Virus record (IMG/VR): IMGVR_UViG_3300032291_002524
Span: 42,316-106,315 of that record
Direction: 5' to 3' (one strand)
DNA: 64,000 nucleotides
Origin: a virus
Under the pieces are notes generated by a model. The model was not told where the DNA came from. It worked only from the letters and a program-made list of their open reading frames with translations, and ran no database searches. How positions within the stretch are numbered: the first letter of the stretch is position 1; every line of letters begins with the position of its first letter. The translations under genes were made by a program, and so were the position numbers. Positions 22,168 through 50,552 of the stretch are shown here, piece by piece.

Positions 22168-23187
22168 ATGGATTTAAACACCCTAAATAGATATTATGAA
22201 GATGGTTTACTTTACAAACAAGTACACCCAACACTTCCATTAACCATTTGGAACTATACAGAAAAAGTTCAATATAATGGTTTATGGGATGAAATCACAT
22301 TGTCCTGTCGTGGATTAGTAACCGATAATCTTGGTAATATTGTTGCAAGACCATTTAAAAAGTTCTTTAATCTTGAAGAGGGTAAACACACACCGACACA
22401 AGATTTTGAAGTTTTCGAAAAAATGGACGGTTCAATGGGTATAATGTTCAAATACTCAGGTGAAACAATATTTGCAACTCGAGGGTCGTTCATTTCTGAA
22501 CAATCAAAATGGATGTCCGATTTTGCAACCACCTATAATTATCAAGACATCATTGTCGATGGATTCACTTATTTATTTGAAATTATATATGAAAACAATA
22601 GGATTGTTGTCGATTACGGTAACCAAGAAAGATTAGTATTATTAGGGATTATCAATACTGAAACAGGTGAAGAACTACCATATAACGATATTTATTCTGA
22701 TGGTTGGGATATTGTTCAAAGATATGACGGAATTAAAGATTATTCTAATTTAAAGAATCTTGTTGAAGCTAATCATGAAGGATTCGTCATTCGTTTTTCT
22801 AATGGGGACCGAATGAAAATTAAGGGTGAAGAATATATTCGTCTTCACAGAATTATGACTAATTTATCAACAACTTCAATATGGGACGTATTGTCTAATG
22901 GTGGTAATATGGAAAATTTACTTATAAATGTTCCAGATGAGTTTTATAATAAAATTAAGGAATATGAAGATGAACTTAAGTTTATGTTTAACTCATTGAG
23001 TAATGATTATTGGATTCATTTTAGAGACATTCAAAATTTGATGGAAAAAGTTGGTGGTGACCGTAAGAACTTTGCTCACGCAGCAAAACAATATCAGTAC
23101 CCATCATTGTTGTTTGGTCTATTGGATGGTAAAGATGTTTCACCTATTATTTGGAAAATTATTAAACCTGAATTTAAAAAATTATAA
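22168..23187 (+). CDS. T4 Rnl1-type RNA ligase
   Basis: The adenylation motif KMDGS is at residues 85-89 (Lys85 is the AMP acceptor). SCRGLV stands upstream, as in Rnl1-type ligases, and the later EGFVIRF and KIKGEEY match motifs IV and V of covalent nucleotidyltransferases. At 339 residues it is close to T4 RNA ligase 1 length. T4 Rnl1 reseals tRNA cut by host anticodon nuclease. In a phage with this many tRNAs, tRNA repair is the likeliest role, together with the kinase at 19020. Confidence 0.85.
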   Translation: MDLNTLNRYYEDGLLYKQVHPTLPLTIWNYTEKVQYNGLWDEITLSCRGLVTDNLGNIVARPFKKFFNLEEGKHTPTQDFEVFEKMDGSMGIMFKYSGETIFATRGSFISEQSKWMSDFATTYNYQDIIVDGFTYLFEIIYENNRIVVDYGNQERLVLLGIINTETGEELPYNDIYSDGWDIVQRYDGIKDYSNLKNLVEANHEGFVIRFSNGDRMKIKGEEYIRLHRIMTNLSTTSIWDVLSNGGNMENLLINVPDEFYNKIKEYEDELKFMFNSLSNDYWIHFRDIQNLMEKVGGDRKNFAHAAKQYQYPSLLFGLLDGKDVSPIIWKIIKPEFKKL

Positions 23188-31525: not shown

Positions 31526-31526
31526 T

Positions 31527-31556
31527 TTGACACTTAAAGAAACTTTTGTATCTTTG
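31527..31556 (+). promoter_or_regulatory. Promoter of tRNA array 1 leader
   Basis: TTG in TTTGACA (31527-31529) and TATCTTTG (31549-31556), spacing 19. It is the best match to the Bacteroidota consensus near the array. Confidence 0.75.
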
Positions 31557-31587
31557 TATCATATTTAGAAAGAAAGGAAATAATAAA

Positions 31588-31683
31588 ATGACACTCGTGA
31601 AAAAACATATTGTGAAATCGTTTATTCAGTTATGTAATAACTGGTATATTCGCTTGTCAATAAGTTCGGGTGTTGTTGTATAA
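31588..31683 (+). CDS. Leader peptide 1 (31 aa) of tRNA array 1
   Basis: Short ORF with a good ribosome site (AAAGGAAA, rare in this window). Its 31 residues use 16 different amino acids: M, T, L, V, K, H, I, S, F, Q, C, N, W, Y, R and G. That covers all 14 amino acids with a canonical tRNA in the array downstream. Residues 2-24 hold almost all the diversity. The last codons overlap the antiterminator segment AGTTCGGGT (31663-31671). The codon for Arg is CGC, decoded by the array's Arg(ACG) tRNA. I interpret it as a sensor of tRNA supply, not as a functional protein. Confidence 0.75.
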   Translation: MTLVKKHIVKSFIQLCNNWYIRLSISSGVVV

Positions 31684-31737
31684 CAACTTTTAGCCTTAAA
31701 TAAGGAAACCCGAACTCACAAGGTTCGGGTTTTTTTT
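31663..31737 (+). promoter_or_regulatory. Attenuator 1: antiterminator / terminator switch
   Basis: Segment 1 AGTTCGGGT (31663-31671) pairs perfectly with segment 2 ACCCGAACT (31708-31716). Segment 2 pairs with segment 3 GTTCGGGT (31723-31730), followed by eight T residues. The 1:2 and 2:3 stems exclude each other. A ribosome at the leader stop (31681-31683) would cover segment 1 and favour termination; one stalled earlier would leave it free. Confidence 0.75.
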
Positions 31738-31754
31738 GTTCTTTGACATGTTGG
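31738..31754 (+). promoter_or_regulatory. boxA-like antitermination element 1
   Basis: GTTCTTTGACATGTTGG directly after the attenuator and 11 bases before tRNA-Phe. It resembles the rRNA-leader boxA bound by NusB/S10, and a near-identical copy precedes array 2. Confidence 0.6.
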
Positions 31755-31765
31755 TAACCAAAAAT

Positions 31766-31838
31766 GGGGTAGTGGCAGATGAGGTCATTGCGACGGACTG
31801 AAAATCCGTAGGAACAGGCTCGATACCTGTCTACCCCA
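31766..31838 (+). tRNA. trnF: tRNA-Phe(GAA)
   Basis: Acceptor GGGGTAG / CTACCCC, anticodon stem ACGGA / TCCGT with loop CTGAAAA, T-arm ACAGG / CCTGT. T-loop is CTCGATA (C54). Discriminator A; CCA not encoded. First gene of array 1. Confidence 0.9.
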
Positions 31839-31844
31839 CAATAT

Positions 31845-31922
31845 TGGGATATAGCTCAGTTGGTTTAGAGCATCTGTCTGATACACAGAAGGTCATCGGT
31901 TCAAGTCCGGTTATCCCAACCA
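31845..31922 (+). tRNA. trnI: tRNA-Ile(GAT)
   Basis: Acceptor TGGGATA / TATCCCA, anticodon loop CTGATAC in stem TCTGT / ACAGA, canonical T-loop TTCAAGT. CCA is encoded. Confidence 0.92.
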
Positions 31923-31927
31923 TATAT

Positions 31928-32003
31928 TGTCCTGTGGTGTAATTGGCAACACATCTCACTTTGACTGAGAAGAGTCCAGGTTCGAACCCTGGCGGGATAA
32001 CCA
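31928..32003 (+). tRNA. trnQ: tRNA-Gln(TTG)
   Basis: Acceptor TGTCCTG / CGGGATA with wobble pairs, anticodon loop CTTTGAC, T-loop TTCGAAC, discriminator A and encoded CCA. Confidence 0.9.
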
Positions 32004-32014
32004 AAAAAAAGTAT

Positions 32015-32022
32015 TATATTTG
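32015..32022 (+). promoter_or_regulatory. TATATTTG promoter box, leaderless start
   Basis: Ends four bases before the ATG at 32027; lies between tRNA-Gln and that gene. Confidence 0.6.
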
Positions 32023-32026
32023 TAAT

Positions 32027-32587
32027 ATGAAAATAAACAGAAAGGACCTAAATTGGTTTCTCCAAAACATCCGTAGGGGAAATGAGGGTCAGGAACTAAC
32101 GGATGAACAGTTGGTTGACAAACTGGCTTCCTATATGGAAACCAACCCATCCTGTATTGATATGGAAGGTGTTAGTAATCCTGGTAGGTTTAGTTATTCA
32201 ACTGTTGGTTATGGTGTTTTTTCACTTATGGGTGAAAAATACCGAATGGGTAGAATTGAAATCTTTGATAGTGAAGATGAATCAGGATATGCGGTTAGTG
32301 AAGGTATTTACACAATGCCATTCGTTGCGGCAAGTCAATTTGAAGATTTTATCGAGTCTTTGGAAACTGACCTTCCAATTAATATTGAAATTGGGTCTCA
32401 TAAGTGGTGTGAAGATGAATGTGCAAAATCTCTTGGTTTTGAAAATGAGGAAGAGATGAGAAACCCTGAAAAAGTGAAAGAATATCGTAGAAAGAAAAAC
32501 GATGAATTTGCACAAGAAGAGGGTTATAAAGATTGGGACGATTTGTTGGCAAACAGTAAATTTGCACCATTAAAAAAAGAAATTTAA
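32027..32587 (+). CDS. Hypothetical protein inside tRNA array 1 (186 aa)
   Basis: The start is set by the promoter box; a longer frame would run back into tRNA-Gln. Acidic soluble protein with no recognised motif. A C-terminal helical part contains C-x(3)-C and A-K-S-L-G-F. It sits between tRNA-Gln and tRNA-Lys with its own promoter, so it can be expressed when the array is attenuated. Confidence 0.65.
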   Translation: MKINRKDLNWFLQNIRRGNEGQELTDEQLVDKLASYMETNPSCIDMEGVSNPGRFSYSTVGYGVFSLMGEKYRMGRIEIFDSEDESGYAVSEGIYTMPFVAASQFEDFIESLETDLPINIEIGSHKWCEDECAKSLGFENEEEMRNPEKVKEYRRKKNDEFAQEEGYKDWDDLLANSKFAPLKKEI

Positions 32588-32648
32588 AAAATGTTCATTA
32601 TATTTGTATGTTTATTGTTACTGAACAGATGAATATAATGAACAATAT

Positions 32649-32723
32649 GACTTCGTAGCTCAATTGGTTTAGAGCACCTCACTTTTAATGAGGGGGTTTC
32701 GGGTTCGAGTCCCGACGGGGTCA
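32649..32723 (+). tRNA. trnK: tRNA-Lys(TTT)
   Basis: Acceptor GACTTCG / CGGGGTC, anticodon loop CTTTTAA in stem CCTCA / TGAGG, T-loop TTCGAGT. Discriminator A. Confidence 0.92.
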
Positions 32724-32905
32724 CAAAACACAATGTTGGGTTCCCTAGTGGTAACGGTATGAACTTAAGTAAGTAAGCCACAAGAATCTAGTAAGAAGCG
32801 GAAGATGGGTTCCCCGCGACTAAAGTGTATTACCACCGAGACGTGGCCGACGGGTCCGCTGACGAGCTGAGGAGGTGGTTTAGAAATATCCCTAAATACG
32901 TACCA
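32724..32905 (+). other. Non-coding spacer with tRNA-like D-arm fragment
   Basis: Two copies of GGGTTCCC (about 32741 and 32810) and an ACCACC / GGTGGT stem (about 32831-32880) are visible. CTAGTGGTAACGG resembles a tRNA D-arm, but no T-arm or acceptor partner could be found. Probably a decayed tRNA or a spacer RNA. Confidence 0.35.
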
Positions 32906-32978
32906 CTTTCCTTAGCTCAGTTGGTAGAGCACTTGGCTTACATCCAAGGTGTCGTTGGTTCGAATCCAGCAGGAAAGA
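32906..32978 (+). tRNA. trnV: tRNA-Val(TAC)
   Basis: Perfect acceptor CTTTCCT / AGGAAAG, anticodon loop CTTACAT in stem CTTGG / CCAAG, T-loop TTCGAAT. Discriminator A. Confidence 0.92.
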
Positions 32979-32986
32979 CAAAAAAT

Positions 32987-33067
32987 GAGTCAGTTGAGCA
33001 ATTGGTCCGCTCGCTTGTCTGTAAAACAAGTCCTTCGGGGGTGTAGGTTCGAATCCTACCTGGCTCA
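32987..33067 (+). tRNA. trnY: tRNA-Tyr(GTA)
   Basis: Acceptor GAGTCAG / CTGGCTC, anticodon loop CTGTAAA in stem CTTGT / ACAAG, long variable arm as expected for Tyr, T-loop TTCGAAT. Confidence 0.93.
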
Positions 33068-33080
33068 CAAACTTATATTT

Positions 33081-33113
33081 CTCCAAAACTAGTAAAAAAA
33101 GTGAGTTTTGGAG
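33081..33113 (+). other. Hairpin between tRNA-Tyr and tRNA-Cys
   Basis: CTCCAAAAC (33081-33089) pairs perfectly with GTTTTGGAG (33105-33113). No T-run, so a processing or stability hairpin is more likely than a terminator. Confidence 0.5.
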
Positions 33114-33128
33114 GATTATAAAGTAAAT

Positions 33129-33216
33129 GGTGGGGTTGCAGAGTGGTTGAATGCATCGGTCTGCAAAACCGAAAAACTGAAAACGTTTCACGTGGGTTCA
33201 AATCCCACCTCCACCT
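33129..33216 (+). tRNA. trnC: tRNA-Cys(GCA) with extended variable arm
   Basis: Acceptor GGTGGGG / CTCCACC, anticodon loop CTGCAAA in stem TCGGT / ACCGA, T-loop TTCAAAT, discriminator T as usual for Cys. The variable region is about 19 bases and can form a GAAA / TTTC hairpin, unlike the short loop of ordinary tRNA-Cys. Confidence 0.85.
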
Positions 33217-33267
33217 CAAATTTATAGTTCAAATATTGATTTTTACTCTTATTGAGTATTTATTTAT

Positions 33268-34011
33268 ATGAAATGGACTGATGATAAAATTGAAAATTTA
33301 ACACGTTTCGTTGAATTGGGTTTTAAACCACAAGAAATTGCAAAAATGTTAAAAACTACTTACAAATCAATTACAAGTAAAATGTTTTTATTAGGATTAA
33401 AAGTTGTTTACACAGAAAAAAAAACATGTAAAAATTGTGATATTCAATTTGACACACATATCACCAACGGTAAAATATTTTGTTCGTCAAGTTGTTCGGC
33501 GATTTACAATAATAAAAAACGTACACTAAGTGATGAAACGAAAAGTAAAATATCCAATACATTAAAAAATAAACCAAAAAAAGACAAACTAATAAAAAAC
33601 AAAATATGTAAAGTATGTAAAGTATGTAAAGTTCGTGAAATTAATGAAAAACATAAAAGGATTTGTAATAACTGTAAATTAGATTATTATGAGTATTACA
33701 GACCTTCGTGTGTTTTTAATTTTAACCCTTACGATTTTCCTGAAGAGTTTAACTTAAATTTAGTAAAAAATAATGGGTGGTACTCACCATCCAACAAAAA
33801 AAATAATTTATATGGTGTGAGTAAAGACCATAAATTATCAATAATGGATGGGTACCGAAATAAAATAAACACAAACATCATATCACATCCGGCAAATTGT
33901 GAATTAATATTATTTTCGGATAATTCAGTAAAAAAAGATAAATCATCAATAACTCTAAATGAATTACTAAAAAAAATTGAGGAGTGGAATGTAAAATATG
34001 GTAAAAGTTAA
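33268..34011 (+). CDS. HNH homing endonuclease in tRNA array 1
   Basis: 247 residues. An N-terminal HTH-like region (about 1-45), a treble-clef C-x2-C...C-x3-C zinc finger (about 52-75) and a S-D-E-T-K-S-K-I NUMOD3-like segment precede the nuclease domain. The nuclease core has SKDHKLSIMDGY and ISHPANCEL, with N and K residues downstream, and is shared with the gene at 47693. It is a free-standing mobile endonuclease lying between tRNA-Cys and tRNA-His. TATTTAT-type sequence abuts its ATG. Confidence 0.85.
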   Translation: MKWTDDKIENLTRFVELGFKPQEIAKMLKTTYKSITSKMFLLGLKVVYTEKKTCKNCDIQFDTHITNGKIFCSSSCSAIYNNKKRTLSDETKSKISNTLKNKPKKDKLIKNKICKVCKVCKVREINEKHKRICNNCKLDYYEYYRPSCVFNFNPYDFPEEFNLNLVKNNGWYSPSNKKNNLYGVSKDHKLSIMDGYRNKINTNIISHPANCELILFSDNSVKKDKSSITLNELLKKIEEWNVKYGKS

Positions 34012-34052
34012 TTATTTTTGTTTTAATTTTCACATAAAAACACAAAATACAT

Positions 34053-34125
34053 GGTGGTTATAGTTCAGAGGAAGAACACTTGGTTGTGGTCCAAGATGTC
34101 GTGGGTTCGAGTCCCATTAATCACC
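34053..34125 (+). tRNA. trnH: tRNA-His(GTG)
   Basis: Acceptor GTGGTTA / TAATCAC with the His-specific extra G(-1) at 34053 opposite C73. Anticodon loop TTGTGGT in stem CTTGG / CCAAG, T-loop TTCGAGT. Confidence 0.92.
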
Positions 34126-34134
34126 CCAAAATAC

Positions 34135-34221
34135 GGAAGATTAGCCTAATTGGTAAGGCAGCTGACTTGAAATCAGCCGTTACGTGAAAGCGTATTGTGG
34201 GTTCGAGTCCTACATCTTCCG
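34135..34221 (+). tRNA. trnS: tRNA-Ser(TGA)
   Basis: Acceptor GGAAGAT / ATCTTCC, anticodon loop CTTGAAA, long variable arm, T-loop TTCGAGT and discriminator G, all typical of Ser. Confidence 0.93.
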
Positions 34222-34268
34222 CAATATGAAAAAGGAAAATGACTTCTATTGACTAAACTCAATAGAAT

Positions 34269-34490
34269 ATGTCAACAAACAGAAAACGAACTAAATTAAA
34301 ATTCGCGGAATGTGGTAGAGATTATCACATACTTTCCCTAAACGAATGGTACCCTCTTTATTGGGATGAAGGGTACAACTTTTATCCTTATTGGAGAAGA
34401 GGTTTTAAAAATCCCAACAAAACAATTCCAATCTTCAAAGTACGTGAGTACAGAACTTGGAAACACAACAGAAAAACACAGTGGAAGTAA
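34269..34490 (+). CDS. Small basic hypothetical protein (73 aa)
   Basis: Very rich in Arg, Lys, Trp and Tyr, so it probably binds nucleic acid. It fills the gap between tRNA-Ser and tRNA-Arg. No motif recognised and the start is uncertain. Confidence 0.5.
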   Translation: MSTNRKRTKLKFAECGRDYHILSLNEWYPLYWDEGYNFYPYWRRGFKNPNKTIPIFKVREYRTWKHNRKTQWK

Positions 34491-34501
34491 TTCCACTATT
34501 T

Positions 34502-34576
34502 GGTTCCTTAGTTTAATTGGATAAAACATCTCGATACGGACGAGAAGATGTGGGGGTTCGAGTCCCTCAGGAATCA
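34502..34576 (+). tRNA. trnR: tRNA-Arg(ACG)
   Basis: Acceptor GGTTCCT / AGGAATC, anticodon loop ATACGGA in stem TCTCG / CGAGA, T-loop TTCGAGT. A34 would need deamination by host TadA to read CGC. Confidence 0.9.
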
Positions 34577-34582
34577 CAACAC

Positions 34583-34654
34583 ACGGATGTAGCTCAGGGG
34601 CAGAGCACTTGTCTCCAAAACAAGGTGTCGGGATATCGTAATTCTCCATCCGTG
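34583..34654 (+). tRNA. trnW: tRNA-Trp(CCA) with unusual T-loop
   Basis: Acceptor ACGGATG / CATCCGT, anticodon loop CTCCAAA in stem CTTGT / ACAAG, discriminator G as in Trp. The T-loop reads ATCGTAA, so positions 54 and 58 are A and T rather than T and A, and the T-stem has a T-T mismatch. Confidence 0.85.
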
Positions 34655-34660
34655 CTAAAT

Positions 34661-34734
34661 GCCGAGGTAGCTCAATTGGTTAGAGCGTCTGTTTCATACG
34701 CAGAAGGTCAGCGGTTCGACTCCGCTCCTCGGTA
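34661..34734 (+). tRNA. trnM: tRNA-Met(CAT), elongator type
   Basis: Acceptor GCCGAGG / CCTCGGT, anticodon loop TTCATAC in stem TCTGT / GCAGA, T-loop TTCGACT, discriminator A. No initiator-type GGG/CCC anticodon stem. Confidence 0.88.
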
Positions 34735-34803
34735 CAAAAAATATAATTTGATAATTCGAAATTTTATAATTAATTTTTTTATTGTTGTTTTTTAAAAGAT
34801 ATT

Positions 34804-34983
34804 GGTTGGTGGCATAGATGCGTAGATTGATAAGCGTGGAGAGACGTGACGCGAGGGTACACACTAAGGATAGGTTGACAATCTTAATTGTATTGTTGTA
34901 AATCCCGACTCTCTAATGGTGTGTGAAGCTTAGTACTTCAGTGTACGGGCAAGATTCCTGATAAAGTCAATCACTACCAACCT
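34804..34983 (+). ncRNA. Structured 180-nt RNA with tRNA-like ends
   Basis: GGTTGGT (34804-34810) pairs perfectly with ACCAACC (34976-34982), so the ends close like an acceptor stem. Inside, GCGT / ACGC and ACACAC / GTGTGT stems are visible. No T-loop or anticodon arm was found. It is either a tRNA-derived novel RNA or a highly expanded tRNA. Confidence 0.5.
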
Positions 34984-34987
34984 AAAT

Positions 34988-35068
34988 GCCGAAGTGGTGG
35001 AACGGTAGACACGAATGCCTTAGAAGCATTTGCTATATGGTGTGTGGGTTCGAATCCCACCTTCGGTA
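34988..35068 (+). tRNA. trnL: tRNA-Leu(TAG)
   Basis: Acceptor GCCGAAG / CTTCGGT, anticodon loop CTTAGAA in stem AATGC / GCATT, class II variable arm, T-loop TTCGAAT, discriminator A. The only canonical tRNA-Leu in the window. Confidence 0.93.
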
Positions 35069-35079
35069 CAAATATGAAT

Positions 35080-35163
35080 TGGCATGTCGCTCAGAGGCCG
35101 AGAGCATCAGGCTGTTAACCTGACTGGGAAACCACACCGTAGGTTCGAATCCTACCATGTCAG
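35080..35163 (+). tRNA. trnN: tRNA-Asn(GTT)
   Basis: Acceptor TGGCATG / CATGTCA, anticodon loop CTGTTAA in stem TCAGG / CCTGA, T-loop TTCGAAT, discriminator G. The variable region is longer than normal (about 15 bases, CTGGGAAACCACACC). Confidence 0.88.
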
Positions 35164-35194
35164 CAATAATTTTTCATAAGTCAAATATTTGTTT

Positions 35195-35202
35195 TATATT
35201 TG
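35195..35202 (+). promoter_or_regulatory. TATATTTG promoter box, leaderless start
   Basis: Ends four bases before the ATG at 35207. Confidence 0.6.
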
Positions 35203-35206
35203 TAAT

Positions 35207-35683
35207 ATGGAAAAGGGGTTTATATCAGCATCGAAAGCAATTAAAGGATATACCGAATCTATGATTGCCAAGTCTGAAAACAACGATTGTGTTGTTAGAG
35301 CAATCGCATCGGCATCTGAAATGGATTATAATTCCGCACATCAATTCGTTAAAGAAACATTCAATAGAGAAAATGGTAGGCCAACATTTGGATTCGGTAC
35401 TGGTATGAATTTGTTATCAAAAAATGGTAAACAAATTAACGGTAAAAACGTTCAAATTATTTCTGAAGAATATAACACCATGTCGTATTATGTGGTAGTC
35501 AAAGGTGTTAAAAAATTAAGAGCAACAACAACATCAACATTTATCAAAAAATATCCGGTTGGTACTTATGTGGTACTTGTTAGAGGTCACGCATTTACTA
35601 TCAAAGATGGAATTGTTATTGGTAACCCCGATGACAGTAAAAAAATGAAAAAACATATCGTAAGGGTTTGGAAAATTGGATAA
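35207..35683 (+). CDS. Putative papain-like cysteine peptidase-fold protein (158 aa)
   Basis: Contains NNDCVVRA at about residue 22, in a helix start, and GHAFTIKDG near residue 125. The Cys-then-His order with these contexts resembles papain-like or C39-like folds found in phage proteins of unknown role. The start is fixed by the promoter box four bases upstream. It could be a protease or an inactive relative; no substrate can be suggested. Confidence 0.55.
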   Translation: MEKGFISASKAIKGYTESMIAKSENNDCVVRAIASASEMDYNSAHQFVKETFNRENGRPTFGFGTGMNLLSKNGKQINGKNVQIISEEYNTMSYYVVVKGVKKLRATTTSTFIKKYPVGTYVVLVRGHAFTIKDGIVIGNPDDSKKMKKHIVRVWKIG

Positions 35684-35710
35684 TATGTTTTAACTTTGTA
35701 TAACAATAAT

Positions 35711-35788
35711 GGTGTCGGTAGCTCAGTAGGTAGAGCAACGGCTTGAAACACCGTGTGCCGAGTGGTTCGATTCCCTCCCACACCACCA
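35711..35788 (+). tRNA. Degenerate tRNA, Phe-like (GAA?)
   Basis: The acceptor GGTGTCG / CCACACC has a C-C mismatch, the T-stem has a bulged T, and the anticodon stem needs a C-A mismatch to give loop TTGAAAC (anticodon GAA). CCA is encoded. Either an unusual second tRNA-Phe or a decaying gene. Confidence 0.5.
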
Positions 35789-35789
35789 A

Positions 35790-35925
35790 ATAATTAGATG
35801 GGCGTAATGAGGGAGGGTCCCGAGTCCCCAAGACACCACGGTCCATAACCATTTGGATGCGAGACGTTGTAAGGTAGTCTAATCCGTCCTGAACGGTATC
35901 CGGTTCGAGTCCGGCTCTGATTATG
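35790..35925 (+). tRNA. Expanded tRNA-like gene (136 nt)
   Basis: ATAATTAGA (35790-35798) pairs over nine bases with TCTGATTAT (35916-35924). A T-arm with CCGG-TTCGAGT-CCGG precedes the 3' strand. The middle is about 50 bases longer than a normal tRNA. A TCCATAA loop with possible anticodon CAT is visible but its stem is poor. Confidence 0.45.
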
Positions 35926-35999
35926 AACTAACCCAGTTTTCACAATGAAGGCCAATACCTTCGGAGTGGGGGTGACGGTCAGGAAAGACTGACAAACAT

Positions 36000-36112
36000 A
36001 GTCAGGTGGCGGAATGGTAGACGCTTAAGGTCATAAGGTATAGTACATAGCTCCGTATTAAAGAGTCAGTTGCCGAATCTATACCATACAGGTTCGAATC
36101 CTGTCTTGACTG
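36000..36112 (+). tRNA. AGTCAGG-family tRNA-like gene A (113 nt)
   Basis: Acceptor AGTCAGG / CTTGACT, Leu-type D-arm and perfect T-arm (ACAGG-TTCGAAT-CCTGT). The central part has a GGTATAG / CTATACC stem around 35 extra bases and no standard anticodon arm. One of eight such genes. Confidence 0.6.
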
Positions 36113-36248
36113 CAGACTCTCATCTATAGCTGTGTAGAGAACTGATGAGTATTGTTGGAGGACACAGACCTCACGAACATTGGTTTAGGGCAAACGTAGG
36201 ACCCCTATCACAAAGAGTACCAACCCATAGGGTAAAGCTCTTTAAAAT
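36113..36248 (+). other. Structured spacer between AGTCAGG genes A and B
   Basis: Stems CTCAT / ATGAG, CCCTAT / ATAGGG and AAAGAG / CTCTTT are visible. No coding potential seen. Confidence 0.35.
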
Positions 36249-36326
36249 AGTCAGGTGGCGGAATGGATAGACGCAACCACATAAGTGGTCAAACCGGTAC
36301 TACAGGTTCGAATCCTGTCCTGACTA
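36249..36326 (+). tRNA. AGTCAGG-family tRNA-like gene B (78 nt)
   Basis: Conserved acceptor, D-arm and T-arm. The anticodon stem ACCAC / GTGGT closes a loop of only four bases (ATAA), so it cannot present a normal anticodon. Confidence 0.6.
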
Positions 36327-36465
36327 CGCTCCTTTCTGGCGTTTTTAACAATAGGACGTGGTACAGATGCACCAGATGGATGTACCAACCCAGCATCAGG
36401 GACTTGGCAAGTTTTCGGTAGCCAATCAGATGTAACCGATGACAGCTCGGAAAGTACGAGCAATA
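36327..36465 (+). other. Structured spacer with shared hairpin
   Basis: GGTACA / TGTACC stem, and GCTCG-GAAAGTA-CGAGC at 36445-36461. The latter hairpin recurs exactly at 47428-47444, again just before a tRNA-like gene. Confidence 0.4.
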
Positions 36466-42624: not shown

Positions 42625-42653
42625 TTGACTTTTCGTAAAATTGACTATATTTA
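42625..42653 (+). promoter_or_regulatory. Possible promoter of array 2 leader
   Basis: TTG (42625-42627) and TATATTTA (42646-42653), the latter one base off TAnnTTTG; spacing 18. Confidence 0.5.
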
Positions 42654-42679: not shown

Positions 42680-42748
42680 ATGAGAACCATTTTCATATTC
42701 GGAACACCAGCAACAGAGGGTGATACTTCCAAAGTGGAGATGGGATAA
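42680..42748 (+). CDS. Leader peptide 2 (22 aa) of tRNA array 2
   Basis: Short ORF. Its 22 residues use M, R, T, I, F, G, P, A, E, D, S, K and V, which covers every amino acid with a canonical tRNA in the second array (E, T, M, G, D, A, P, I, R, S). Its Arg codon is AGA, matching the array's Arg(TCT). Its Gly codons are GGA and GGT, matching Gly(TCC) and Gly(GCC). The last codons contain the antiterminator segment (42736-42744). No good ribosome site is visible. Interpreted as a regulatory leader, not a functional protein. Confidence 0.65.
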   Translation: MRTIFIFGTPATEGDTSKVEMG

Positions 42749-42802
42749 TATTGTCTTTTAGACCTTAAAGAAACCCATCTCCAAAAAAGATGGGTTTTTT
42801 TT
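42736..42802 (+). promoter_or_regulatory. Attenuator 2: antiterminator / terminator switch
   Basis: GGAGATGGG (42736-42744) pairs perfectly with CCCATCTCC (42774-42782). The same strand's CCCATCT alternatively pairs with AGATGGG (42788-42794), followed by eight T residues. The leader stop (42746-42748) is two bases after the first segment, so a terminating ribosome masks it. Confidence 0.72.
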
Positions 42803-42810: not shown

Positions 42811-42842
42811 TTTGGCAAATCAAAAATAATGTTGTATCTTTG
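42811..42842 (+). promoter_or_regulatory. Second promoter of array 2
   Basis: TTTGG (42811-42815) and TATCTTTG (42835-42842), downstream of attenuator 2 and upstream of boxA. Confidence 0.6.
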
Positions 42843-42875: not shown

Positions 42876-42892
42876 GTTCTTTGACATATTGG
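42876..42892 (+). promoter_or_regulatory. boxA-like antitermination element 2
   Basis: GTTCTTTGACATATTGG, differing from the array 1 copy at one position. Confidence 0.6.
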
Positions 42893-42911
42893 AAACCAAA
42901 AAAAAAATAAA

Positions 42912-42936
42912 TTGGTTAGGATAACCAACTTTTTTA
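42912..42936 (+). terminator. Terminator between boxA 2 and the endonuclease gene
   Basis: TTGGTT / AACCAA stem with T-run. Antitermination at boxA could allow read-through to array 2. Confidence 0.6.
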
Positions 42937-42970
42937 AGGGTTCGTAATATTTATCATTAAATGATATATT

Positions 42971-43876
42971 ATGTATAAATGTGGATATTGCGAAAAAGAT
43001 TTTAAGAATAAGGGAGGTTATGTAAGACATAATAAAACCTGTAAAATTGTTGATAATATTAGAGATGATGTTTACCGATTATATGTTGATGATTTGTGGA
43101 GTATAAAAGACATTGAAAAAAAATATAAGATTGGCCATAATACGGTCAATCAGATTTTAGGAGATTCAAAAAGAACACAATCTGAAGGTAATAAAACAGC
43201 TCGTAAGAAATATCCTGAAAATTTTAAACATACTGAAAAATCTAAACAAATTTTAAGGGAGAAACGATTAAAATTTATGAAAGATAATCCCGACAAAACT
43301 GCTTGGAGATTAAAGAATATATCATACCCTGAAAAATTGTTTTATAACAAAGTTATTGAATTAGGGTGGGATAAGAAGTATTCAATTAAACGAGAATACT
43401 CAGTATTTCCATATTTTATTGATTTTGCGTTTTTAAATGAAAAAGTTGCCGTTGAAATTGACGGTTCTCAACACCTTCTTCCTGAACGAAAATTAAAAGA
43501 CAGTGAAAAAGACGATTTATTAATTTCAAATGGATGGAATGTTATTAGGATATCTGAATATAAAATAAAAACCGAAATTGAAAATGTCTTTGTTGAAATA
43601 TTACAAGTTTTAAATAAAAATGTTAAACCTAAATTACATAGAGTTGGAATCGTATTACACCCAAAGAAAAACCAAAAGAAAAAACGAGAAAAAAATGGAT
43701 TGACAAAAGAACAACTAAATTCTATTAAATCTCAAAGAAAAATTAACAGACCTGATTATAAAACATTAATTAACGAAGTAAAAGAATTTGGTTTTAATAA
43801 AACAGGTAAAAAATACGGGGTTAGTGATAACGCGATTAGAAAATGGGTTAAATTTTATGAAAAATATGAAAATTAA
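42971..43876 (+). CDS. Zinc-finger / Vsr-like homing endonuclease
   Basis: 301 residues. N-terminal C2H2-type finger (C-x2-C-x(12)-H-x(4)-C), an HTH-like segment (about 40-70), then a Vsr/EDxHD-like nuclease core: SYPEKLFYNKV (Glu), YFIDFAFL (Asp), VEIDGSQH, and NGWNVIRISEYKI. A second HTH-like region closes the protein. Such enzymes occur as free-standing homing endonucleases in phages. TATTTAT lies near the start. It separates boxA 2 from tRNA-Glu. Confidence 0.8.
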   Translation: MYKCGYCEKDFKNKGGYVRHNKTCKIVDNIRDDVYRLYVDDLWSIKDIEKKYKIGHNTVNQILGDSKRTQSEGNKTARKKYPENFKHTEKSKQILREKRLKFMKDNPDKTAWRLKNISYPEKLFYNKVIELGWDKKYSIKREYSVFPYFIDFAFLNEKVAVEIDGSQHLLPERKLKDSEKDDLLISNGWNVIRISEYKIKTEIENVFVEILQVLNKNVKPKLHRVGIVLHPKKNQKKKREKNGLTKEQLNSIKSQRKINRPDYKTLINEVKEFGFNKTGKKYGVSDNAIRKWVKFYEKYEN

Positions 43877-43879
43877 TCT

Positions 43880-43887
43880 TATCTTTG
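43880..43887 (+). promoter_or_regulatory. TATCTTTG box before tRNA-Glu
   Basis: Fifteen bases before tRNA-Glu, so at least part of array 2 can be started here. Confidence 0.55.
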
Positions 43888-43901
43888 TCCTATAATTTTA
43901 A

Positions 43902-43975
43902 GGTCCTGTGGAGAACGATAGCTATCTCATCACCCTTTCACGGTGGAGTATCGGGGGCGGCACCCGACAGGACTA
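43902..43975 (+). tRNA. trnE: tRNA-Glu(TTC) with unusual T-loop
   Basis: Acceptor GGTCCTG / CAGGACT, D-stem GAGA / TCTC, anticodon loop CTTTCAC in stem TCACC / GGTGG. T-arm TCGGG-GGCGGCA-CCCGA: stem perfect, loop not TTCRANN. Confidence 0.85.
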
Positions 43976-44012
43976 CAAAAAAAAAAGATTTGGTAAATTA
44001 AAAAATTATCAT

Positions 44013-44020
44013 TATCTTTG
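44013..44020 (+). promoter_or_regulatory. TATCTTTG box before AGTCAGG gene D
   Basis: Eleven bases before the tRNA-like gene, showing that this family is driven from its own promoter. Confidence 0.55.
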
Positions 44021-44031
44021 AATTATCAAAT

Positions 44032-44124
44032 AGTCAGGTGGCGGAATGGTAGACGCTTTTGGATTCTCTGTCCGATACCTTTGTTAAGGCAAAAAGCTTA
44101 CAGGTTCGAATCCTGTCCTGACTA
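44032..44124 (+). tRNA. AGTCAGG-family tRNA-like gene D (93 nt)
   Basis: The most tRNA-like of the family: acceptor AGTCAGG / CCTGACT, anticodon stem TTGGA / TCCGA with seven-base loop TTCTCTG (anticodon CTC), variable arm CCTT / AAGG, perfect T-arm, discriminator A. A Leu-type body with a Glu anticodon is unexpected. Confidence 0.65.
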
Positions 44125-44198
44125 CAAAAATATTGGGTCCCGTACGGAATCGGGTGATGAGTGAAGGGTTGCCGACTCTGTTTCACCGCTCAAAGCAT

Positions 44199-44290
44199 AG
44201 TCAGCTAGGAAGAAGGTCGGTTCGAGTCCGATGGAAGGTCATGGATGACGGGTAGCTCCCTGCAGAGAGGTTCGAATCCTCTCCTGACTA
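44199..44290 (+). tRNA. AGTCAGG-family tRNA-like gene E (92 nt, rearranged)
   Basis: Ends AGTCAG / CTGACT and 3' T-arm AGAGG-TTCGAAT-CCTCT are present. The D-arm is lost, and a second T-arm-like hairpin (TCGG-TTCGAGT-CCGA) sits in the middle. Looks like a recombinant of two tRNA genes. Confidence 0.5.
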
Positions 44291-44681
44291 CAAAGTGTTG
44301 TTCCCTTGATAAAGGAAATGTAAAGATTAGTGATATTACTTGAATTATGGAAAACATAATCGTACACTACAACACTGAGGGATTATCATCCTCACTTTCT
44401 GTATCTCACGTGGAAAAACTTCTTACGGAAGCGGTAAAATGGAGATTAAGGATTCGCAATCCTCTCTGACGTAAGATGTGAAACCACACTGATTATTAAA
44501 ACTGCTTGTTAAAGTGATTTACGCTAGTTGGAAATAACTGGTATTGTCTAAACCTTAATCAGTCTCCCAAGGGTGAGCAAGTTGTAATACAATACAGAGT
44601 GAACAGTACGGCTGCGAATTGTGAGTGTTACAACTGAGTGCAGATGGAAACACCTAGTCATGTGTATAAACTAACTAACAT
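44291..44681 (+). ncRNA. Structured non-coding region (about 390 nt)
   Basis: No ORF. Perfect stems include GTGTTG / CAACAC, AGGATT-CGC-AATCCT, CTTACG / CGTAAG, ACTGATTA / TAATCAGT and GTTGTAA / TTACAAC, in nested order. Suggests one or more folded RNAs between tRNA-like genes E and F. Confidence 0.5.
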
Positions 44682-44862
44682 AGTCAGGTGGCGAAATGGT
44701 TAGACGCTACCAGCGAGAGGTACTCCACCCATGGTAAATAACCCTATTTAGTGATTCAAATAGGTGCTGGGTTATTGGACACACGATTGAAACATACCAT
44801 CAAATGTGTTAGACGTGACCGATGTGCGAGAGAGGTTACAGGTTCGAATCCTGTCCTGACTA
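44682..44862 (+). tRNA. AGTCAGG-family tRNA-like gene F (181 nt)
   Basis: Conserved ends and D-arm with about 100 extra bases in the centre. The insert has a long hairpin (AATAACCC / GGGTTATT enclosing CCTATTT / AAATAGG) and ACACA / TGTGT. The longest family member. Confidence 0.55.
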
Positions 44863-44914
44863 CAAAATTCAGGATTAATTACCCTGAAATAATGGAAGGT
44901 TCGAAACTTCCGAT

Positions 44915-45002
44915 TGATTATGGTGTAAAGGCGCACAGCGAACTGAGTAGGTCGGTGGACCGGAAGGAACGCGGGATTAAGGTTCGAATCCTTATTAATC
45001 AG
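44915..45002 (+). tRNA. tRNA-like gene with rearranged centre (88 nt)
   Basis: Acceptor TGATTAT / TTAATCA (six pairs), D-arm GTG / CAC, T-arm TAAGG-TTCGAAT-CCTTA, discriminator G. The centre holds GGTC-GGTG-GACC and a GCG / CGC outer stem but no standard anticodon loop. A TTCAGG / CCTGAA hairpin and a T-arm-like hairpin lie just upstream. Confidence 0.45.
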
Positions 45003-45010
45003 CAAAATTA

Positions 45011-45085
45011 GCTTCTGTAGTTTAGCAGGTAAAATAACTGACTTGTAATCAGTAGTCCCCAGTTCAAATCTGGGTGGAAGCTCCA
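45011..45085 (+). tRNA. trnT: tRNA-Thr(TGT)
   Basis: Acceptor GCTTCTG / TGGAAGC, anticodon loop CTTGTAA in stem ACTGA / TCAGT, T-loop TTCAAAT, encoded CCA. Confidence 0.9.
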
Positions 45086-45092
45086 AACAAAT

Positions 45093-45167
45093 AGCGGGGT
45101 AGAGCAGAGGTAGCTTACAAGGCTCATAATCTTGTGGTCAGTGGTTCGAATCCACTCCCCGCCACCA
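45093..45167 (+). tRNA. trnM: tRNA-Met(CAT)
   Basis: Acceptor AGCGGGG / CCCCGCC with an A1-C72 mismatch, anticodon loop CTCATAA, T-loop TTCGAAT, encoded CCA. The 1-72 mismatch recalls initiator tRNA, but the three G-C anticodon-stem pairs are absent. Confidence 0.8.
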
Positions 45168-45279
45168 AATAATTCAATAGTGTAAACAAGTAATAGGCCG
45201 GCACATGATGGTCTCTCTATATTAAGAGTAGAGTTAAACTCAGCCACAAAGAGGAACGGTAAGGCCTCCTTGAATTATT
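45168..45279 (+). ncRNA. Small structured RNA closed by a 10-bp stem
   Basis: AATAATTCAA (45168-45177) pairs perfectly with TTGAATTATT (45270-45279). Inside are AGGCC / GGCCT and CTCT / AGAG stems. No coding potential. Confidence 0.45.
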
Positions 45280-45286
45280 AACAAAT

Positions 45287-45428
45287 AACTCTATAACAGA
45301 ATTAATTCTGTGAAATTGGGTAAATGAGGGTTAAATGGTTTGACAATCCTGAGACGCGTTTGGAATAAACCGTTAGAGCATTTAACAAGTAGTTTACATT
45401 GTAGGTTCGATTCCTACTAGAGTTACCA
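45287..45428 (+). tRNA. Expanded tRNA-like gene with CCA (142 nt)
   Basis: Perfect acceptor AACTCTA / TAGAGTT, T-arm GTAGG-TTCGATT-CCTAC, discriminator A and encoded CCA. The D-arm is a six-pair hairpin ACAGAA-TTAA-TTCTGT. The centre is a long stem (GTTAAATG / CATTTAAC enclosing GGTTT / AAACC). No anticodon arm was found. Confidence 0.5.
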
Positions 45429-45522
45429 AAAAGTTATGTGTTAATACATCTGACGGCAATTAGATATTAATATGTTAACTTCTATCGTTCTTAATCTTTG
45501 CCGAGATAAAGGGTGGTAGTTA
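45429..45522 (+). other. Structured spacer
   Basis: CGGCA / TGCCG stem around an AT-rich loop. No gene seen. Confidence 0.3.
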
Positions 45523-45595
45523 TTCCTGTAAGTGTGATGGCAAAACACCGGACACGGAGTCCGGAGTCGGAGGTTCGAGTCCCCCACAGGAACCA
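45523..45595 (+). tRNA. tRNA-like, possibly Pro(CGG)
   Basis: Perfect acceptor TTCCTGT / ACAGGAA, D-arm GTG / CAC, anticodon stem CCGGA / TCCGG with loop CACGGAG (CGG if read in the standard place, but U33 is replaced by A). T-loop TTCGAGT with one A-C mismatch in the stem. Could also be a modified Arg(ACG). Confidence 0.55.
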
Positions 45596-45602
45596 AATAT
45601 AT

Positions 45603-45689
45603 GCAGGTTAGAGTAGAGGACAAACTCACTGGGCTCATAACCCAGAGTCTCTGAAAGGGGACACGTCTGGTTCGAATCCAGCACCTGCT
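45603..45689 (+). tRNA. tRNA-Met-like (CAT) with long variable arm
   Basis: Acceptor GCAGGT / ACCTGC, anticodon stem CTGGG / CCCAG with loop CTCATAA, variable hairpin GTCTCT-GAAA-GGGGAC, T-loop TTCGAAT. A class II variable arm on a CAT tRNA is not normal. The anticodon stem is initiator-like (GGG/CCC). Confidence 0.6.
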
Positions 45690-45754
45690 ACCAAAATGTC
45701 GTTCGTACTTGACTCCAATCGATTATTACACTTGTCATGTACGGGCAACTCCAC

Positions 45755-45830
45755 GCGAGTGTCGTATAGTGGCTTATTATGTTAGACTTCCAATCTAAAG
45801 ACGAGATTTCGATTATCTCCACTCGCTCCA
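45755..45830 (+). tRNA. trnG: tRNA-Gly(TCC)
   Basis: Perfect acceptor GCGAGTG / CACTCGC, anticodon loop CTTCCAA in stem TTAGA / TCTAA, T-arm GAGAT-TTCGATT-ATCTC, discriminator T, encoded CCA. Confidence 0.9.
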
Positions 45831-46105
45831 AAAGAACCTTTCCTTACATAGGACGGATTAGCACCGTTGAAAGACAATCTTTGGCTTCGTGGGAGTATCT
45901 ACCCAATGAAGTATAAATGGCCCAAAGTGTGATGTGATGGACCCTGCTCTGTAGTGCACTTACACCAGGTGAACAGTAAACTATGTTCAGTCAAATCCAC
46001 AACTACGGTGAGCGTAGAAGGAAAGTTTCTTTTTTAAGTGGACCTTTCAGTTGAAAGGGACCAATCCGAAGTCGTCCTACAAGATTAGAAACGTCTTCGG
46101 CATTT
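45831..46105 (+). ncRNA. Structured RNA closed by AGGAC/GTCCT and GGATT/AATCC
   Basis: AGGAC (45850-45854) with GTCCT (46074-46078) and GGATT (45855-45859) with AATCC (46063-46067) close a domain of about 230 nt. CTTCGTGGG can pair with CCCA-x-TGAAG and GGTGAAC with GTTCA inside. No ORF. Lies between the two Gly tRNAs. Confidence 0.5.
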
Positions 46106-46177
46106 GCGGGAGTAGCTCAGGGGTAGAGCGTCTGCTTGCCAAGCAGAAAGTCGAAGGTTCAAATCCTTTTTCCCGCT
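46106..46177 (+). tRNA. trnG: tRNA-Gly(GCC)
   Basis: Acceptor GCGGGAG / TTCCCGC, anticodon loop TTGCCAA in stem TCTGC / GCAGA, T-loop TTCAAAT, discriminator T. Confidence 0.92.
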
Positions 46178-46216
46178 CTGGGTTGGTTTTTGGACCAATT
46201 TATAATATATATAAAT

Positions 46217-46894
46217 ATGGGTAGAAAACCTTACAAATATCATTATCTGTATAAAACTACTAATATGTTAAATAACAAATATTACATTGGGATGCACTCT
46301 ACTAATAATTTAGAAGATGGATACATAGGTAGTGGTGATAGAATTAGAAGAAGTTTGAAAAAATATGGTAAAGAAAATTTTAATTTTGAAATTATAAATT
46401 TTTTTGAAAATAGGGAATTGTTAAAACAAGCCGAAAAAGAAATAATAACTGATGAAATATTGAATGATGATTTATGTATGAACATTTGTTATGGTGGTGG
46501 GGGTGGATATATAAGTCCTGATGGGGTTAAAAAGGGAAGAATAAAAACTGATAAAATTCTTAAGGAGAAATACGGTGAAAATTTTAGAAATGTAATTTTT
46601 AGGCAATACTACGATAATTTATCTGACGAAGAAAAAAAAGAATGGAAGAAAAAAATATCCAAATCTTTGAAAATTTATTATGAAACACATTTGAATTCTT
46701 TTACAGGTAAAAAACATACCGAACTTACTAAAAAAAAGATAGGAGAAAAAAATTCTATTCATCAAAAAGGGGAAAAAAACTCTCAATTTGGAACTTGTTG
46801 GATAACAAATGGTGAAATAAATTTAAAAATTAAAAAATGTGATGTATATCAATATCCTGAATGGAATAAAGGTAGAACATTAAAAAAGAAATAA
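46217..46894 (+). CDS. GIY-YIG homing endonuclease in tRNA array 2
   Basis: 226 residues. The start lies after tRNA-Gly; a longer frame would overlap it. The nuclease domain has HYLYKTTNMLNNKYYIGMHS, then D-G-Y-IGSG and the KKYGKENF block with catalytic Glu downstream. The C-terminal half is Lys-rich with a GKKHTELTKKKIGE (NUMOD3-like) DNA-binding segment and a final TN-G-E-x-N domain. A free-standing mobile endonuclease between tRNA-Gly and tRNA-Asp. Confidence 0.88.
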   Translation: MGRKPYKYHYLYKTTNMLNNKYYIGMHSTNNLEDGYIGSGDRIRRSLKKYGKENFNFEIINFFENRELLKQAEKEIITDEILNDDLCMNICYGGGGGYISPDGVKKGRIKTDKILKEKYGENFRNVIFRQYYDNLSDEEKKEWKKKISKSLKIYYETHLNSFTGKKHTELTKKKIGEKNSIHQKGEKNSQFGTCWITNGEINLKIKKCDVYQYPEWNKGRTLKKK

Positions 46895-46942
46895 GGGTCC
46901 GAGGGAGTCCCTGAAAGGAATAAATATCCTGTCCCTATCCAT

Positions 46943-47014
46943 GGTCTATTGGTGAAATAGTTATCATATCTGCCTGTCACGCAGAAGTCCTCGGAGCGTA
47001 ACCGGGATAGACCG
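46943..47014 (+). tRNA. trnD: tRNA-Asp(GTC) with swapped T-loop
   Basis: Perfect acceptor GGTCTAT / ATAGACC, anticodon loop CTGTCAC in stem TCTGC / GCAGA, discriminator G as in Asp. T-arm CTCGG-AGCGTAA-CCGGG: positions 54 and 58 are A and T. Confidence 0.88.
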
Positions 47015-47238
47015 CAATGAGTAAGAGATACTCAGTAGTCTTTCATCCAAGACTCATTTAACAATGGATGGGGTTAAAAAACACCACCCTAAGGTAATCG
47101 GTTCGGGATAAAACAGCATCAGGCCTGATGACTGCCGACGTATTGGGCTGACGTTTTCAAGGGGGTAAGACTCCGCAGGGTTACAAACAGGAAACCGGGA
47201 AAAATCTACTTATCCGTAATCTCAGGGTGGGGTAATAT
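47015..47238 (+). ncRNA. Structured non-coding region (about 220 nt)
   Basis: TGAGT / ACTCA, CATCCA / TGGATG, CATCAGG / CCTGATG and a long-range CCACCCT / AGGGTGG stem. No ORF. Confidence 0.45.
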
Positions 47239-47324
47239 AGTCAGGTGGCGGAATGGTAACGCAATGTTTCTAGACGAAGTTCAGCCGGGGGAGGCTGTTG
47301 CAGGTTCGAATCCTGTCCTGACTA
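47239..47324 (+). tRNA. AGTCAGG-family tRNA-like gene G (86 nt)
   Basis: Acceptor AGTCAGG / CCTGACT, variable arm CAGCC / GGCTG, T-arm GCAGG-TTCGAAT-CCTGT. Normal class II size. In standard register the loop TCTAGAC gives TAG (Leu) with C33 and an imperfect stem, so decoding is doubtful. Confidence 0.6.
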
Positions 47325-47427
47325 CATTGATGGGTGGTTCTTCTCCCTGAACAGGTGGCTTGGTAATCAAGGAACTGAATGTTTTTAGAACATTTGCAGA
47401 AATACTGGTAGAACAGTGAAGATGACG

Positions 47428-47444
47428 GCTCGGAAAGTACGAGC
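47428..47444 (+). repeat. Second copy of the GCTCG-CGAGC hairpin
   Basis: GCTCGGAAAGTACGAGC, identical to 36445-36461, six bases before tRNA-like gene H. Confidence 0.6.
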
Positions 47445-47449
47445 AAAAT

Positions 47450-47612
47450 AGTCAGGTGGTGGAATTGGTATACACTACCGTTAAGGGCTTAGAGATATGA
47501 TAAGATGTGGAAACGCACCCCTTCCTTGAACGGTTGTCCGATGAATGAATCGGGCTGTGTGATGTAAAGCGCACGGATGCAATCAATACAGGTTCGAGTC
47601 CTGTCCTGACTA
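47450..47612 (+). tRNA. AGTCAGG-family tRNA-like gene H (163 nt)
   Basis: Conserved acceptor and T-arm. The anticodon stem ACCGTT / AACGGT is intact, but about 46 bases interrupt its loop. The variable region also carries CCGAT / AATCGG and GTG / CAC hairpins. Resembles a tRNA with an intron-like insert in the anticodon loop. Confidence 0.6.
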
Positions 47613-47692
47613 CATAAGAATAATTACTTAAATAAAAACGATAATGTTTAGATTCGGCTCGTTTTTTCTCCATTCTAAAGATATTTATAGAT

Positions 47693-48469
47693 ATGAAAAA
47701 ATGTAAAAACATTGAATGTGAAAATAGTGTTTTGAAACATAGAGTATATTGTTCATTAACTTGTCGTAATATCTATGTTAATAGATATATGAGGGATTAT
47801 TCTAAAGCAGGTCAAACTATTAGTAATAAATCAATTGATTTATATATGAAGAATATAAAACATTGTCAAAACCCTAAATGTGGTAAAGAAATACCATATG
47901 AAAAAAGGAGAAATAATTATTGTGACAGTAGTTGTAGTACTTCACACATTAATATTAAAAGGCCACATACATGGGGTGATAAGATAAAAAAGGGGGTGAT
48001 TAATTATCACATAAAAAATGGTCATATTAAAACTAAAATATGTGGTTTTTGTGGTAATGAATTTTCAAATAGAAATAAATATTGTTCAATAGATTGTTAT
48101 AAACACAAACGAAGAGAACATATTAATGAATATGAAAAATATAAATTAGACTGTAAATTCAAATTTAACGTGTATGACTATCCGCAAGAATTTGATTTGT
48201 CTTTAATTGATAAGTATGGTTGGTACAAAGCAATAAATAATGGCAATAATTTACGAGGTATTAGTAGGGACCATATGTTATCAATCAATGAAGGGTACAT
48301 GTTAGGTATTGACCCATATTTAATTTCTCATCCTGCAAATTGTAAATTAATGATTCATACTGACAATATTAGTAAGAATAAAAAATCGTCAATAACAAAA
48401 GAAGAGTTAATTAAAAAAATAGATAGTTGGAACATTAAATATCCATTAATAAATGGGGTTGTCGTATAA
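47693..48469 (+). CDS. HNH homing endonuclease overlapping tRNA-Ala
   Basis: 258 residues. Two zinc-finger segments (C-x(4)-C...C-x3-C, and C-x2-C-G-K near residue 60, repeated near 118) precede the nuclease core ISRDHMLSINEGY and LISHPANCKLM, the same type as at 33268. TATTTAT lies four bases before the ATG. Its last 15 bases, including the TAA stop, form the 5' acceptor strand of tRNA-Ala. The gene therefore invaded or evolved flush against the tRNA without destroying it. Confidence 0.88.
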   Translation: MKKCKNIECENSVLKHRVYCSLTCRNIYVNRYMRDYSKAGQTISNKSIDLYMKNIKHCQNPKCGKEIPYEKRRNNYCDSSCSTSHINIKRPHTWGDKIKKGVINYHIKNGHIKTKICGFCGNEFSNRNKYCSIDCYKHKRREHINEYEKYKLDCKFKFNVYDYPQEFDLSLIDKYGWYKAINNGNNLRGISRDHMLSINEGYMLGIDPYLISHPANCKLMIHTDNISKNKKSSITKEELIKKIDSWNIKYPLINGVVV

Positions 48470-50544: not shown

Positions 50545-50552
50545 TTTTGTTT

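Follow-up and report, generated by a model that had tools for sequence, protein, structure and literature searches.

Phage leader peptides that list the tRNAs of their own arrays: a probable multiplexed attenuator upstream of tRNA operons

The window analysed here is a 64,000-nt stretch of phage DNA, positions 42316-106315 of a 106,315-nt IMG/VR virus record; among the proteins encoded by this record are a T4 Rnl1-type RNA ligase, a thymidylate synthase, a head maturation protease and an endolysin. The window carries two tRNA arrays on the plus strand. Array 1 (31766-36327) contains tRNAs for Phe, Ile, Gln, Lys, Val, Tyr, Cys, His, Ser(TGA), Arg(ACG), Trp(CCA, 34583-34654), Met, Leu(TAG), Asn and Phe, together with two tRNA-like elements. 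Array 2 (44032-51784) comprises Thr, Met, Met, Gly(TCC), Gly(GCC), Asp, Ala(TGC, 48455-48526) and Pro, and then, at 51253-51784, Met, Ile(TAT), Arg(TCT) and Ser(GCT). The Trp and Ala tRNAs (starting at 34583 and 48455, respectively) were missed by ARAGORN and recovered by Rfam, while two ARAGORN calls in array 2, Glu(ctc) and Ser(aga), are doubtful and correspond to tRNA-like elements. Four tRNA-like elements with odd anticodon calls (36000-36112, 36249-36327, 44032-44125 and 47239-47325) have common acceptor, D and T arms (AGTCAGGTGGCGGAATGG...CAGGTTCGAATCCTGTC.TGACT) and a variable anticodon region; all four resemble diverged copies of a single Leu-type tRNA. Two genes upstream of array 1 lies a gene for a protein with a cyclic-phosphate processing receiver domain (PF20274, 30825-31250). 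A 91-aa gene near array 1 was considered as a linked partner and rejected, its relatives being found in 43 loci with no conserved link to arrays.

Array 1 is preceded, on the same strand, by a compact set of signals. The promoter P1 (31526-31556) consists of TTTG (31526-31529), 19 nt and TATCTTTG (31549-31556), and has the -33/-7 form TTTG-N19-TAnnTTTG; we take the TTTG-N19-TATCTTTG type to be that of Bacteroidota promoters. The first-pass annotation had described a consensus promoter here. A promoter is indeed present, but since the window holds six matches to the -33/-7 type against 0.86 expected, P1 is not simply a sigma-70 consensus. The 31-codon leader ORF that the same annotation proposed is found at 31588-31683; it encodes MTLVKKHIVKSFIQLCNNWYIRLSISSGVVV, followed by a stop codon, and contains F, I, Q, K, V, Y, C, H, S, R, W, L and N, i.e. 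all 13 non-Met identities of array 1. The last leader codons overlap segment 1, AGTTCGGGT (31663-31671), the 5′ side of the predicted antiterminator, whose complement ACCCGAACT (31708-31716) is segment 2. The sequence AGTTCGGGT or its complement occurs three times in the 64 kb, with 0.27 expected. Besides being the antiterminator partner, segment 2 forms part of an intrinsic terminator (31702-31737) with segment 3 at 31722-31730 and a U-run at 31730-31737. The three segments had been placed correctly to within a base and the eight T residues are there, but the terminator stem, previously given as 8 bp, reaches up to 15 bp (31702-31736; fold z -3.6). A boxA, GTTCTTTGACATGTTGG (31738-31754), lies between this attenuator and the first tRNA.

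A de novo scan of the window for terminators with an upstream copy of their own 3′ arm returned two strong plus-strand sites, at 31663 and 42735; the same scan on 10 shuffled sequences gave no strong site. The second site, which is new relative to the first-pass annotation, precedes array 2, and its leader is unrelated to leader 1. It consists of a promoter, TTG-N18-TATATTT (42625-42652), a 22-codon leader ORF encoding MRTIFIFGTPATEGDTSKVEMG and a stop (42680-42748), segment 1, TGGAGATGGG (42735-42744), terminator 2 (42767-42802) with segment 2, CCCATCTCCA (42774-42783), segment 3, GATGGG from 42789, and a U-run, and finally a boxA, GTTCTTTGACATATTGG (42876-42892), all on the plus strand. The set of TGGAGATGGG, CCCATCTCCA and GATGGG differs from that of attenuator 1; a search with the exact pattern of attenuator 2 gave zero matches, the pattern being too strict. 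Leader 2 holds T, G, D, P, A, S, R and I (and E), and so covers all eight confident non-Met identities of array 2, while three of the 10 identities exclusive to array 1 are present in it. A candidate second promoter, P2 (TTTG-N20-TATCTTTG, 42811-42842), is located between terminator 2 and boxA; lying past the terminator, it would possibly supply basal expression of array 2. In three relatives (L067, L109 and L111) a Glu(TTC) tRNA follows the boxA. This tRNA is missing from 42893-44031 of the window, where a nuclease-like ORF (DUF559, 42971-43876) follows the boxA of array 2; Glu codons are nonetheless kept in leader 2.

The same architecture was found in relatives. A pattern for the three-segment motif matched 17 virus contigs, and all 17 matches lie 32-113 nt upstream of a tRNA array and are accompanied by a short ORF. 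To avoid selection by the attenuator itself, a later scan was keyed on the downstream GTTCTTTGACATRTTGGNA. Among boxA-type sites in IMG/VR contigs located at most 60 nt from an array of at least three identities, 62 out of 77 have a leader and an attenuator, recognised as a terminator at which a short ORF ends, a rate that is somewhat optimistic because the 77 include sites behind the first 17, attenuator-found contigs. Of 3000 random regions drawn from these contigs, at most 54 (~2%) had the full leader/terminator combination, and some of the 54 are perhaps real sites. Leaders were picked by ORF position and length, and composition was never used; the few entries trimmed or dropped by hand were likewise handled regardless of composition. 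Grouping the 72 leaders whose arrays have three or more tRNA identities gave 36 families dissimilar to one another, and across all 36 the order is kept: first the short ORF, with segment 1 at its end, then segments 2 and 3 forming the terminator, boxA, and the tRNA array. The search for a short ORF with an overlapping terminator before the tRNA arrays of relatives, which the first-pass annotation had suggested as a check, thus reveals a conserved arrangement. A match to the -33/-7 promoter lies upstream of the leader in 22 of the 36 families and in 7.5% of random places.

Two results of the survey count against attenuation: 15 of the 77 boxA arrays are without a leader, and a candidate second promoter, which would bypass attenuation, follows the terminator in 8-11 of the 36 families (array 2 of the window included). 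Both would suit an alternative in which the leader is a small gene without regulation that has a promoter and a terminator to itself, the array being expressed through leaky read-through or from other promoters. Such a gene fails to predict that the codons match the tRNAs of their own array in 36 families and in the ORF frame only, or that segment 1 is complementary specifically to its own terminator arm (see below), and we consider this explanation very unlikely.

All leader-bearing relatives are metagenomic contigs, and many of the arrays are truncated at a contig end or at the limit of the fetched stretch. A DNA search for close relatives with the whole leader region as a query returned mainly tRNA fragments. 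Three leaders used as tblastn queries had zero matches among 50,697 phage records, so that no cultured phage with these leaders was found. Neither a leader nor a terminator nor a boxA accompanies the tRNA arrays of crAss001 and cr116_1; in T4, inspected by eye, the tRNAs are preceded by annotated protein genes; and Lak phages have a sequence close to boxA and no leader. In two Lak megaphages (L353 and L354) this near-boxA, at position 5001, is in a tRNA-containing region, with an upstream -7 element resembling TATCTTTG. None of 395 cellular genomes, from the class to which a Pedobacter genome belongs, has the GTTCGGGT form of the motif. The hosts of the large phage group that carries the leader-plus-attenuator elements are probably Bacteroidota.

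Both elements of the window are followed by a boxA that matches those of Bacteroidota rRNA operons. Cellular matches to GTTCTTTGACATATTGG (A at position 13; exact at 42876) are mostly in Bacteroidota genomes. In 62 of 120 exact cellular matches the sequence lies 51-300 nt upstream of 23S rRNA, and 54 of these 62 have a tRNA in the upstream spacer. It is known from E. coli rrn that rRNA operons carry a boxA in the spacer before 23S. In Prevotella/Dysgonomonas-type genomes (L229, L236, L245, L290, L304 and others) GTTCTTTGACATATTGGTTTACACG is distant from the 23S start, and these sites may be other transcripts that use boxA. In most phage arrays boxA is positioned 25-31 nt before the next tRNA. 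It is not always ahead of the first tRNA, because in five loci (L063, L139, L177, L202 and L138) an extra tRNA apparently lies between the terminator and boxA. Judging from its sequence and position, the phage boxA probably shields the untranslated array from termination via host NusB/S10.

The families allowed us to compare the codons of each leader with the content of its array. Taking one leader from each of the 36 families and excluding Met, 99.1% of array identities are present in their own leader (recall). When arrays were permuted among leaders, recall was 79.1% (sd 2.2) and did not exceed 88.0% in 20,000 permutations; for windows taken from ordinary proteins of the same contigs it was 71.7%. 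Precision was 0.645 vs 0.471 for permuted arrays (z 10.7), and phi 0.43 vs 0.03 (z 9.3). The match is confined to the frame of the ORF, with z values from -1.9 to 2.1 in the other two forward and the three reverse frames. Individual amino acids illustrate the match between leader and array: Trp occurs in 19/19 leaders whose array has tRNA-Trp and in 4/17 of the others, Tyr in 18/18 vs 5/18, Pro in 15/15 vs 6/21, and Glu in 16/17 vs 5/19. Within the MKQNS family the two co-vary, an Ala codon being present in the leader solely in the two members whose array has tRNA-Ala. Within families, 257 of 615 substitutions fall at codon position 3, a modest bias that is not part of the main evidence.

The composition of the leaders could also be read in another way. 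They contain more Cys, Trp, His, Asn, Gln and Arg than ordinary proteins do, and about one-third of leader residues are absent from their own array, many leaders having such residues, which counts against a strict correspondence. Both properties would be expected of a generic stall or stress sensor, in which any translation block induces the array and the match in composition is a by-product of composition shared within a clade. We consider a sensor of this kind unlikely, however, because the match breaks when leaders are swapped within a genome, where clade composition is constant. Eight genomes or contigs have two leaders each; of their 114 array-specific identities, the array's own leader contains 113 and the other leader 53 (Fisher's test, P = 2.6e-22, an optimistic value because families recur among the two-leader genomes). 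In addition, leaders of short arrays consist mostly of their own residues, as for the array Asp-Glu-Val-Leu-Ala-Trp, and the choice of isoacceptors tracks the array. AGR codons are found in 6/6 leaders of arrays with Arg(TCT) only, and CGN codons in 12/14 leaders of arrays with Arg(ACG) only. Isoacceptor matching is significant for Arg (P = 0.0007), Ser (0.02) and Ile (0.015), and in combination (CMH test, P = 2.4e-6), while for Leu alone it is not significant. The isoacceptor-level match therefore indicates that the signal is decoding capacity, beyond amino acid supply. The earlier proposal of a broad shortage sensor holds as far as the sensing of many amino acids is concerned, but what the leader lists is matched to the tRNAs of its own array and is not the near-universal sample that had been assumed.

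The matching codons are concentrated at a particular distance from segment 1. The share of residues that match the array is 76-81% at 4-11 codons upstream of segment 1, 63% at 1-3 codons upstream and 43% at the segment 1 start. In a fold model that represents the RNA state just before synthesis of segment 3, the antiterminator is formed at 0.79-0.86 with the ribosome A site at least two codons upstream and at 0.10 with the ribosome at the stop codon. For leader 1 the modelled values are lower, 0.57-0.59 in a permissive zone that spans codons 2-22 and holds all 13 identities, and zero from codon 25. The computed folds contain a mutually exclusive antiterminator and intrinsic terminator, with the position of the ribosome deciding between them. 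In equilibrium folds of the full-length free RNA, the terminator prevails for both leaders of the window even without a ribosome, which counts against the model; the antiterminator decision must therefore be kinetic, as is the decision in classical attenuation.

Segment 1 pairs far better with its own terminator arm than with those of others: the mean energy of the segment 1:2 duplex is -15.6 kcal/mol for own partners and -10.1 kcal/mol for swapped ones, and the lowest value in 5000 permutations was -11.6. Because families use different segment sequences (GTTCGGGT, GAGATGGG, GGGTGGG, GTGTTCAG, GTCGGGT and others), complementarity has been maintained despite sequence change. Together with the order conserved in 36 families, this strongly supports the trp/his-like logic that the first-pass annotation had read from element 1. 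Since the regulated products are tRNAs, and T-box riboswitches sense uncharged tRNA, we also considered a riboswitch-like RNA, of T-box type or protein-bound, that senses tRNA directly and in which the ORF is incidental. Against it, a scan of the window with Rfam 15 at gathering thresholds gave tRNA matches only, with no T-box, no common aptamer is seen among the families, the signal resides in the codons of a single frame, and segment 1 is placed at the end of the ORF or close to it. We regard such a riboswitch as extremely unlikely.

We conclude that these elements are very probably ribosome-mediated attenuators of the trp/his type, multiplexed over up to ~15 amino acids, which would induce an array when one of its own tRNAs is short. 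From the anatomy and the folds we infer translation of the leader, stalling, co-transcriptional folding and read-through in vivo, as follows. When all tRNAs of the array are charged and plentiful, the ribosome would reach the stop codon and cover segment 1, leaving segments 2 and 3 to form the terminator, so that transcription would end before the array. Shortage of any one of these tRNAs would stall the ribosome upstream, and segment 1 would then pair with segment 2; the resulting antiterminator would block the terminator and let RNA polymerase continue into the array. Shortage might arise because host tRNAs are cut by defence nucleases, are lost in infection, or were never abundant enough. 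The RNA ligase of the phage (PF09511, phrog_562; 22168-23187), a candidate tRNA repair enzyme, fits nuclease-cleaved tRNAs as a cause of shortage, being compatible with it and no proof. Past the terminator, boxA probably recruits the host NusB/S10 antitermination complex, which would allow the long untranslated array to be transcribed to its end. Fresh tRNAs would lift the stall and close a negative feedback loop.

The phage elements resemble Salmonella hisL and E. coli trpL, and the multivalent ilv and thr leaders, in having a short leader ORF with regulatory codons, and they share with the his and trp attenuators a mutually exclusive antiterminator and terminator in which a stall would favour read-through. 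They differ in that the product is a tRNA array and not a biosynthetic operon. Furthermore, phage leaders present up to ~15 amino acids with one or a few codons each, whereas leaders of the his/trp type contain runs of one to three kinds. In the his leader, changing one codon is known to alter de-attenuation, with stop codons giving up to 24-27-fold effects and rare Arg codons also being strong (PMC4046918). Unlike the trp and his leaders, the phage elements show just three segments, in sequences and in folds alike, with no protector hairpin in a four-segment layout, and boxA then follows. The four-segment layout, which is typical of trp and his but not shared by every attenuator, causes termination if the leader is not translated; in an untranslated phage leader RNA, the antiterminator is predicted to be able to form ahead of segment 3 synthesis, and read-through is expected by default. 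The missing protector hairpin weakens membership in the strict trp/his layout, not the attenuator-like way of working. The phage boxA has the same sequence as that upstream of Bacteroidota 23S rRNA, in the manner of the rRNA operon boxA on which NusB/S10 act, and in both cases precedes a long structured untranslated RNA, but in the phage it is located after a conditional terminator and before phage tRNAs. T-boxes likewise sense the state of tRNA through a terminator and an antiterminator, whereas in the phage elements sensing would proceed via the codons of the leader ORF.

Phage tRNAs have been reported to help against tRNA-cleaving defences of the host (PMC10264068, PMC11555353), and the strength of the tRNA promoter matters (PMC11555353). 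Supply of tRNA as protection is common to those systems and to our proposal; a term search of both papers found no attenuation or leader peptide. The open-access literature yielded no precedent for a tRNA operon under leader-peptide attenuation, in line with the first-pass annotation, which knew of none. If our interpretation is true, these would be the first known tRNA operons controlled in this way and the most multivalent attenuators known, and attenuation would be extended to tRNA genes and to many amino acids simultaneously. The leader, attenuator and boxA would also provide a sequence signature for functional tRNA operons and suggest a design for multi-tRNA sensors. The purpose of phage tRNA genes has been debated for decades, between codon compensation and the replacement of tRNAs cut by host defences. 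A leader that lists the tRNAs of its own array implies that the phage monitors their supply and makes tRNAs when it is exhausted, and the role of phage tRNAs thereby becomes directly testable. With somewhat better than even confidence, we propose that this is a widespread phage strategy, in which each array would be headed by a test strip that reads its content codon by codon, and would be induced on demand once any of its tRNAs is depleted by host defence or by infection.
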